A stretch of 64,000 nt of DNA from Liolophura sinensis (lineage: Eukaryota > Mollusca > Polyplacophora > Chitonida > Chitonidae), in the NCBI RefSeq assembly GCF_032854445.1, contig NW_027017962.1, positions 1 to 64,000 of the forward strand. Reading direction: 5' to 3'. The translations under genes and the position numbers were made by a program. The notes below the pieces were generated by a model, which was not told where the DNA came from, did no database searches, and saw only the letters and a list, made by a program, of their open reading frames with translations. Shown here one piece after another: positions 58,501-61,500 of the stretch; position 1 is the first letter of the stretch; every line of letters begins with the position of its first letter.

Positions 58501-61500
58501 GTGTTGGGAGGCATTCCAAACTGTTCCACGATTTTTCTCACCTCTGGCGCAAAGCCCATGTCCAGCATTCTGTCAGCTTCATCTAATATCAAGTACTTAA
58601 TTTTACTTAGCCCTATCTGCAAAGACGAGAGTTTCTTGCATTACTGAATGCAAATCATTCAAACAGCCATTTCAAACAGACATATCAAATACACGTGTAA
58701 ATTATGCATGAAATAATGTAGAACATTCCCATATAAATGATCCGACTTTGATGGGGTATTATTATGAGGTATAATACTTCAACGAGTCTTAGCCGAGTTA
58801 GCTGCGTTAATGTTGAAGCAAGATTTTCAGCAATATTTGAAATACATGAAGAGTTTCCTTCAAGAATGCAAAACTTCAGCTAAGTGTATACAACACTGAA
58901 GCCGTGAAGATGATAATTTACAGTAATTAATATGCACAGAGGAGACGCAATGGAATATCCGCTATGTGTCGTAATTTAGATGCATGTATATCTTCAGGCC
59001 AATAAATGTAGCAGTTTTTGACATAGCAGTTTTTGACATACCACCCGTAATATTTACTTTACTATTGATTCTAATATTCCAAGTTTTGCATTCATATGTG
59101 TATTACACAGTTCAACACATGCGGTACCGATGTAATGAACACTGGAATTTACAGTAATTAACATGCACAGAGATAATCAAAGAAGGAACATCCCCAACTG
59201 TGCTCTACAAAGGTGTAAAACCTGAGTTCAATACACATAGTACTAAGATAGGACCTGTAACATTCTGTTTAACACTGAATACTCTCCCTGGTATTGGACG
59301 CCAATGCATGACATAGTTACACCTGTACTTCAAACACAACTAAAACTAGATAATTTCCAACCACAACCATCCACAGGTTGCTGGCTGACCTTCGCATGTG
59401 CGCCAGGAGCAGTTGTGTTCAAGCTGTATCCTTACTTTGCCCTTGGAGATGAAGTCCACGAGCCTGCCTGGCGTACCGATGACGATATGGGCGCCTTGTT
59501 CAAGCTGTCGCAGCTGATGGCCAACACTCGTGCCTCCATAACAGACTACTGGTCTCAACATGCTACCGTGGGAGAATTTCCTGGCCTCTAAGAAGATCTG
59601 ACTGGCTAACTCCCTGGTGGGGGCGATCACCAGAGCTTGAGGTTCCTGGGTGTCTGAGAAAGCGCTGCCAGACAGCCCATTCTTCATCATACCAGTCAGC
59701 ACAGGTAACAGAAACGCAGCCTGTGTGAACAAAACATTGTATCTGTGAGCAAAGGTAAAAGAAACGCAGCATTTGTGAAAAGAACATTAGGCCTGTCCAC
59801 ACAGGTAACAGAAACGCAGCCTGTGAGAACAAAACATTGTATCTGTGAGCAAAGGTAAAAGAAACACAGCATGTGTGAAAAGAACATTAGGCCTGTCAGC
59901 ACAGGTAAGAGAAATGTAGCCTGTAAGAAAAAAAAAAACATATCTGTGAGCACAGGAAACAGGAACAGCCTGTGGGAACAAAACATTGTATCTCTGAGCA
60001 TAAGTAAGAGAAACACAGCCTGAAAGAACAAAACATATCTGTGAGCACAAATAACAGAAACGCAGCCCATGGGAACAGAACATATCTGTGAGCACAGGTA
60101 ACAGAAATGCAGCCCATGGGAACAAAACATATCTGTGAGCACAAGTAACAGAAATGCAGCCTGTGGGAACAAAACATATCTGTGAGCACAAGTAACAGAA
60201 ATGCAGCCTGTGGGAACAAAACATATCTGTGAGCACAAGTAACAGAAATGCAGCCTGTGGGAACAAAACATATCTGTGAGCACAAGTAACAGAAATGCAG
60301 CTTGTGGGAACAAATGATCATCCTTTTCAGTGCAAGGAACAGAAACAAGGCCTGTGGGAACAAAAAATCACACATGCTATGTATGACAGTTGCTAATTCC
60401 TCGCAATTGTTTTAGTATTCATTGTGTAATATAATCATTTGACTCCTGAATAGTTTACTTCAAGGCCGGCATGCAGGTCGAGGAATGCAGACAGAGTCTT
60501 AAGCAAGCATCCACTATTCATCAGGTAAATAATAATTTACGTAAAAATGGAGAAGCAACTAGATGTCACTGGCCAGTTTAAATGTGTCACTTAAAATGGC
60601 TGTAAGTTTTTTGTTTGTTTGTGGTTTCATGTTAAATTCATTATTTTTGTCGGAACAAGAATTTCTTCTATTTGGTCATCCCAATTGCAGACCTATCTTT
60701 AGTGCTGCATCACTGCAATACCATGATCAATATACCACACCATGTAAATATGGCTATGAGTCAGACTTACGCTGTGAAATTGAGACAAACAACATGTGTA
60801 TTAGACAAGCTCAAGTTTTACCGATTTGTAACATGTAAATCAAAGGGAAGGACATATATCACATAAAGCTCATAATGCACTAGGCATTAATAATCATCAC
60901 TTGGAACAAAATGTTGCCGAGAAAAGGCAACGTTTCAATGGTCTAACATATGACAGGCGTTTACTATAAGTCAAATTATAGTACAAGTACAGGCAATTGC
61001 CACTCACAGTGACGACATTGGTGCATGTATGAATGATTGGAGTTTTATGTCGTATGACGGGGAGAAGTCATTAGGTTATGTAGATGTACTGTGTCATGCT
61101 GCATAAGTAATGCTGCCACTGAAACATCGTGCCGAAGACACAAGGCCCAAATTCTGTTAAATATTACAATGTTATAAACTCCAGAAACAATAAAATTTTG
61201 AATTCAAAGCTCACCGTTTTGCCTGAGCCAGTCTGCGCACACCCCATGAGATCTCTGCCAGCTAGCACCGCTGGAATGGCATACTTTTGAATAGGTGTTG
61301 GCTTCTCATACTTAGATTTTTTCACATTTTCATGAATCCTGGGATAGAGTCCTGCCTCCTCAAAAGTCCTGATGGCAGGAACTACTTCATGTCCTGTGCA
61401 CTCTACACGGATTGCATCATATTTGTCAAAGTTAATGCCCTTTTGCATTGACAGGAAAATTTCACTCTCATCTTCTGTGGGATCCGGGGGAACGTAGATT

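Follow-up and report, generated by a model that had tools for sequence, protein, structure and literature searches.

Mirage minisatellites are tandem arrays that run across an intron-exon boundary and carry exon bases within the repeat unit. They have been reported from amphioxus in Adh3, in the globin genes BflGb6 and BflGb9, in PGBD5 and in TnC (PMC3087553, PMC3902484), where they are found at either 5′ or 3′ splice sites. The reported units measure 10–72 bp in Adh3 and 150–160 bp in the globins, and the globin mirages are described as having a homogenised middle with the boundary units left out (PMC3087553). The same report gives RT-PCR data that suggested regular splicing in the presence of the Adh3 and globin mirages (PMC3087553). 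Length instability between haplotypes and somatic instability are also counted among the features of the class.

Two other systems offer partial parallels. The human IFI6 (6-16) minisatellite puts repeated splice signals at a splice site, and its repeat units are reported to be used as donors, giving three mRNA species at the one locus (PMC4526556). Intron gain by tandem duplication of AG/GT proto-splice sites (PMC3087553) likewise duplicates across splice signals. Our search of the literature, conducted among open-licence papers, found no mirages outside lancelets, molluscs included, and IFI6 was the nearest case elsewhere.

Here we describe an array in the vasa gene of the chiton Liolophura sinensis that is very probably a mirage-type minisatellite, a new case, in a mollusc, of a kind known from lancelets. 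It lies in a stretch of 64,000 nucleotides (positions 1 to 64,000 of contig NW_027017962.1), referred to below as the window, and coordinates given without a contig are those of the window.

The vasa gene

The vasa gene runs on the minus strand from approximately 63,044 to 55,496, and 17 of its splice junctions were placed within the window. The initial annotation had named vasa as the host of the repeats, and this identity is borne out by a domain search that finds two CCHC knuckles together with DEAD and Helicase_C domains, and by the EESWD C-terminus read from the sequence, which we take to be a mark of vasa. The exon of interest (59436..59720, minus strand; 285 nt, phase 0) was placed by translation and splice sites; it carries motif Ia and PTRELA, ends in FISKGK, and matches PF00270 (4e-17) from its first residue onwards. 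The upstream exon (61215..61501, minus strand) ends in GSGKT (motif I), and the 1494-nt intron that follows it (59721..61214, minus strand) bears the array at its 3′ end.

Elsewhere in the gene, the intron after ...LGESG (58307, minus strand) has an apparent GC donor (ATCAG/GCAAGT) in place of GT. The third vasa intron downstream of the array-bearing one contains a 46-bp, 17-copy array (56970-57757), which lies about 120 and 165 nt from the splice sites and is clear of both. Just upstream of the first placed CCHC-knuckle exon is a 30-bp tandem repeat (63226-63328; 3.5 copies, 98%) that can be read on the minus strand as GESRNKGHAG repeats, and may belong either to a coding exon of repetitive sequence or to an array within an intron. 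We also note that Rfam gives 21 tRNA matches in the window; nine tRNA-Thr(TGT) genes are in repeated segments at 15746-27245 (minus strand), and three tRNA-Gly(TCC)/tRNA-Met(CAT) pairs are in repeated segments at 673-9229.

Structure of the array

TRF reports the vasa array at 59698-60314 (period 47, 12.8 copies, score 657). With unit slicing and alignment, and with outer limits set by inspection, it spans 59685..60368 on the minus strand and comprises 14 junction copies: 13 decoys, with +1 positions at 60351, 60301, 60254, 60207, 60160, 60113, 60066, 60019, 59969, 59920, 59870, 59820 and 59770, and the real junction, the fourteenth, at 59720. The initial annotation had spoken of about thirteen 47-bp units, and whereas the count agrees with the 13 decoys, the spacing is not uniform; it is 47-50 bp by +1 positions (47-51 by anchors), with 47 predominating far from the exon and 49-50 close to it. 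By inspection, the unit consists of about 14 nt of intron, made up of pyrimidines and CACAG (e.g. TTTTGTTCCCACAG), followed by 33 or 36 nt from the start of the exon.

In ungapped comparison the first 24 bases of the exon are matched at at least 19 positions in 11 of the 13 decoys, at 17 in the outermost and at 10 in a unit with a 2-base gap. Across exon positions 25-36 the match is 8/12 in ten decoys, 7/12 in two and 4/12 in the gapped one. The 30-base junction of this exon recurs at 29/30 within the intron, compared to 13-18/30 for the other 16 vasa junctions in the window, and is far above chance given that the best junction match among mismatched kinesin controls (n = 150) is 19/30. Unit slicing, alignment and the 29/30 junction copy thus confirm the earlier reading of these repeats as copies of the vasa acceptor and the start of its exon.

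Three central units (60131..60271, minus strand; +1 positions 60254, 60207 and 60160) have a pairwise identity of 100% and constitute a homogenised core. The outermost unit is the most divergent, with 72% identity to these central units, and the real junction unit has 87%. The units adjacent to the exon are organised as a 100-bp two-unit repeat, such that units 59870 and 59770 are 96% identical, and units 59920 and 59820 have GGCCTAATG in common. An identical core with divergent boundary units is the usual picture of unequal exchange, which here would have left out the units at the boundaries. A DNA search of the chiton's own genome with window positions 59436-60370, in which very common words were skipped, found no second locus. 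With this locus as the only match, the array gives no evident sign of being a dispersed element, albeit that this exclusion is not absolute.

Candidate decoy acceptors

Eight of the 13 upstream copies keep the AG and score as acceptors, and to these the term decoy acceptor, which had been applied to all of the repeats, is appropriate; the other five lack it, reading CAA, TGG, TGG, CAT and AAT, and in the CAA copy an AG shifted inwards by one base scores low, at 4.6. Scores were calculated with a human acceptor matrix, and with this matrix the eight intact decoys score 12.3-15.0, all above the true acceptor at 10.2. A CTNAY motif is present 23-36 nt upstream in seven of these eight. Selective loss of the decoy AGs was considered and rejected: by eye, the AG columns hold two and three minority letters among the 13 decoys, and other columns hold up to at least five.

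At the real 3′ splice site (59720..59746, minus strand) a branch-point-like CTNAY match lies 26 nt upstream, the only one in the last 50 nt. Because this match falls where the last upstream unit is derived from the exon, the branch point of the true site may itself be copied exon sequence. The vasa units look like ready-made splice cassettes, with an exon-derived branch-point-like motif, a pyrimidine tract, an AG and the start of the exon.

The initial annotation had expected a decoy, if used, to add a segment directly behind the ATP-binding motif. Each of the 23 non-native AGs in the array runs into a stop codon within the insert plus exon (23/23), and none gives an in-frame insert; decoy use would therefore truncate Vasa and add no segment after this motif, with NMD probably following. 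The exon-proximal acceptor (59720) is most likely the site that is spliced, although it is outscored by all eight intact decoys, seven of which have CTNAY.

A second array in the window

A second array (38121..38756, minus strand) is built of 57-bp units, most of which contain donor-like GTAAGAG. It begins at a donor whose last exon base is 38755, in a gene with a weak DUF4440 match below the cut-off, and only 2 exon bases lie inside it. No copy of its 30-base junction was found (best 16/30). The second array touches a splice site yet is no mirage in the strict sense, and its earlier description as a splice-junction repeat holds for the donor-like motif in most units but not for the junction, which is uncopied.

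Survey of kinesin junctions

Junctions elsewhere in the genome were sampled through a Pfam kinesin search of all 609,464,459 bases in 632 contigs, which gave 132 exon matches. We analysed 60 of the 91 kinesin regions (85 of the 132 exon matches) with 500 nt of flank, taken in contig-name order, so that the sample is non-random and from one gene family. Splice sites were assigned by the score of the human matrix and an open frame, with three corrections made post hoc. In addition to TRF, we used a junction-copy test that does without it, and which scores a 30-base junction as copied if it recurs with at least 24/30 matches within the 360 nt of intron that follow.

The automatic TRF count placed 7 of 150 kinesin junctions inside arrays, and 4 of 148 after correction. 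The acceptor of locus L024 was moved, as the exon before it, in L025, has SYLE at its end and the following one is expected to begin with IYNE; the corrected acceptor lies about 25 nt downstream of the end of the L024 array. Both L042 'junctions' were dropped as exon-fragment copies with the unit of the L041 array, and we infer that L041 and L042 are a single array, with 557 bases between them unseen. The arrays at L033, L076 and L023 are near exons but were rejected as junction mirages, as the junction is not copied.

The TRF reading and the copy test give the same four mirages. These are a donor mirage with a 63-bp unit and 38 exon nt (L025), an acceptor mirage with a 27/54-bp unit and 15 exon nt (L028), a donor mirage with a 34/137-bp unit and 18 exon nt (L035), and a donor mirage with a 73-bp unit and, by TRF, 17 exon nt (L041). 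Both types of boundary are affected in this genome, with three donors and one acceptor among the 148 kinesin junctions, plus the vasa acceptor. The 73-bp donor mirage at L041/L042 (C11:27412983-27415159) seems to include a longer exon-fragment copy of about 110 nt, which scores as a kinesin exon in its own right (E 4.5e-6).

Junctions and introns compared

With the junction-copy test, the 4/148 copied junctions compare with 2/148 points at 30 nt into the intron, 5/148 at 50 nt, 6/148 at 75 nt, 7/148 at 100 nt and 9/148 at 120 nt, and with 1/148 and 0/148 points at 30 and 60 nt inside the exon. The junction count is above that at the 30-nt intron point (p 0.68), and does not differ significantly from any of the intron points (Fisher p 0.26-1); when exon points are included p ranges from 0.12 to 1. 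Copies are rarer at junctions than at points in sampled loci (4/148 versus 388/5507, p 0.046), a biased sample of 20 10-kb loci that cannot be treated as cleanly random, given that six are contig starts, three lie next to the window, and between 0 and 50% of a locus is covered by arrays. The intron points within the same kinesin regions are a better control.

TRF arrays covered 9-20 of 150 points at intron distances of 50-450 nt and 452 of 4000 sampled points, such that about 11% of the latter are inside arrays in this sample biased by contig starts. Comparing the corrected 4/148 with the uncorrected TRF intron points (n = 150) gives Fisher p values of 0.26 at 50 nt, 0.043 at 100 nt and 0.003 at 300 nt, and by TRF the junctions are poorer in arrays than introns at least 100 nt away. 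Coverage is 1.4% deep within exons and rises to 12.7% at 400-499 nt, as calculated before the three junction corrections. Tandem arrays cover 50% of sampled locus L011 (C10:1-10000) and 37% of L010 (C9:500000-509999).

Mirages recur in this genome and junctions are not detectably favoured in this small, one-family sample, because none of the intron points, at 2-9/148, differs significantly from the 4/148 at junctions; a modest preference for junctions over the nearest intron may nevertheless exist. The initial annotation had proposed from the two arrays in the window a shared way of forming at exon borders, and had named a lack of minisatellite enrichment at splice sites as evidence against it. 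As far as 148 junctions of one family allow, such a lack is what we observe, and the proposal is not upheld.

Origin of the array

The part of the exon that encodes AAFLLP is presumably a conserved DEAD-box helicase region following motif I, and for this reason we regard the exon as the source and the array as the copy. An ancient intron common to vasa and a PL10/DDX3-like paralog of the same genome was considered and rejected, as the intron position differs, that of the paralog being apparently after CAQTG and not after GSGKT as in vasa; the polarity is therefore read from AAFLLP conservation alone.

The array would have begun with a tandem duplication of the 3′ splice junction, its breakpoints some 14 nt into the intron on one side and some 36 nt into the vasa exon on the other. 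Unequal exchange or slippage would then have brought the copies to 14, generated the 47-bp derivatives and, close to the exon, the 100-bp two-unit repeat, and homogenised the central units. Duplications that cross the boundary would be tolerated because one complete junction always remains, spared by selection; those wholly inside an exon would alter the protein and be removed. The simplest account, and one that we hold with considerable confidence, is that the vasa array is one case of spill-over from active minisatellite formation, a presumably genome-wide and largely neutral process in this chiton that would spill over exon borders without targeting them.

Alternatively, the birth of arrays could be favoured at exon borders through repair there, R-loops or conflict between transcription and splicing, but we consider this improbable. 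Although two arrays in one window touch splice sites and copies are found at 4/148 junctions versus 2/148 points at 30 nt into the intron, the second array takes in only 2 exon bases, and copies are found at 5-9/148 points at 50-120 nt and at 388/5507 sampled-locus points. As judged from the coverage slope at uncorrected junctions and from few events, array ends seem somewhat more concentrated within the first 45 bases of exons than in the adjoining intron.

A slightly less probable idea still is that the array lowers or tunes vasa output through decoy acceptors that yield stop-containing RNAs. The eight decoys that keep AG outscore the real site, seven of them with CTNAY, all lead to stops, and in human IFI6 the use of repeat units as splice donors has been reported (PMC4526556). 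Yet similar arrays occur at 4/148 kinesin junctions, and there is thus nothing specific to vasa in having one; moreover, five of the 13 decoys are broken, and the lancelet mirages are reported as not disturbing splicing (PMC3087553). That the repeat was collapsed or expanded in assembly is very unlikely indeed, since although the window forms the beginning of an unplaced 379-kb scaffold (379,032 bases) and HiFi coverage is reported as 14X, the array, at about 0.7 kb, is far below the reported mean HiFi read of 8,347 bp (PMC11068029), its units differ by substitutions, and the four kinesin cases are on three chromosome-size contigs. The copy number of the vasa array may differ between alleles.

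Relation to known systems

By the sequence features tested, spill-over in vasa appears to have produced an array that belongs with the lancelet mirages. As in amphioxus, tandem copies extend across an intron-exon boundary with exon bases in the unit, the 47-50 bp unit is comparable to those reported, and the coding part is intact. The splice dinucleotide is present in many but not all copies of both (AG or GT in amphioxus, AG in 8/13 in vasa), both have a homogenised middle with divergent boundary units, and both 5′ and 3′ boundaries are affected in the chiton as they are in amphioxus. The host differs, being a lancelet in the one case and in the other a mollusc, where the array is known from the sequence of one assembly. 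The present work also differs from that on amphioxus in comparing junctions with intron points of the same loci, by which no enrichment was found.

The vasa array shares with IFI6 the placing of repeated splice signals at a splice site, although these are acceptors in vasa and donors in IFI6. It shares with intron gain from proto-splice sites the duplication across splice signals; however, no new intron is seen in vasa, the whole array is within one existing intron, and only the acceptor side is copied.

Mirage minisatellites are now placed in a mollusc, with their rate compared with that at intron points of the same loci, and in vasa the spliceosome must choose among nine good-looking acceptors, of which eight are decoys. 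With annotation and reads, it can now be tested whether arrays of this kind arise at splice sites or only spill over them. Much more tentatively, and with the odds in our view against it, mirages could be a general by-product of minisatellite-rich animal genomes and no lancelet oddity; at a few per cent of chiton junctions (4/148), they would then continually supply material for new splice sites, for the sliding of introns and for their gain.
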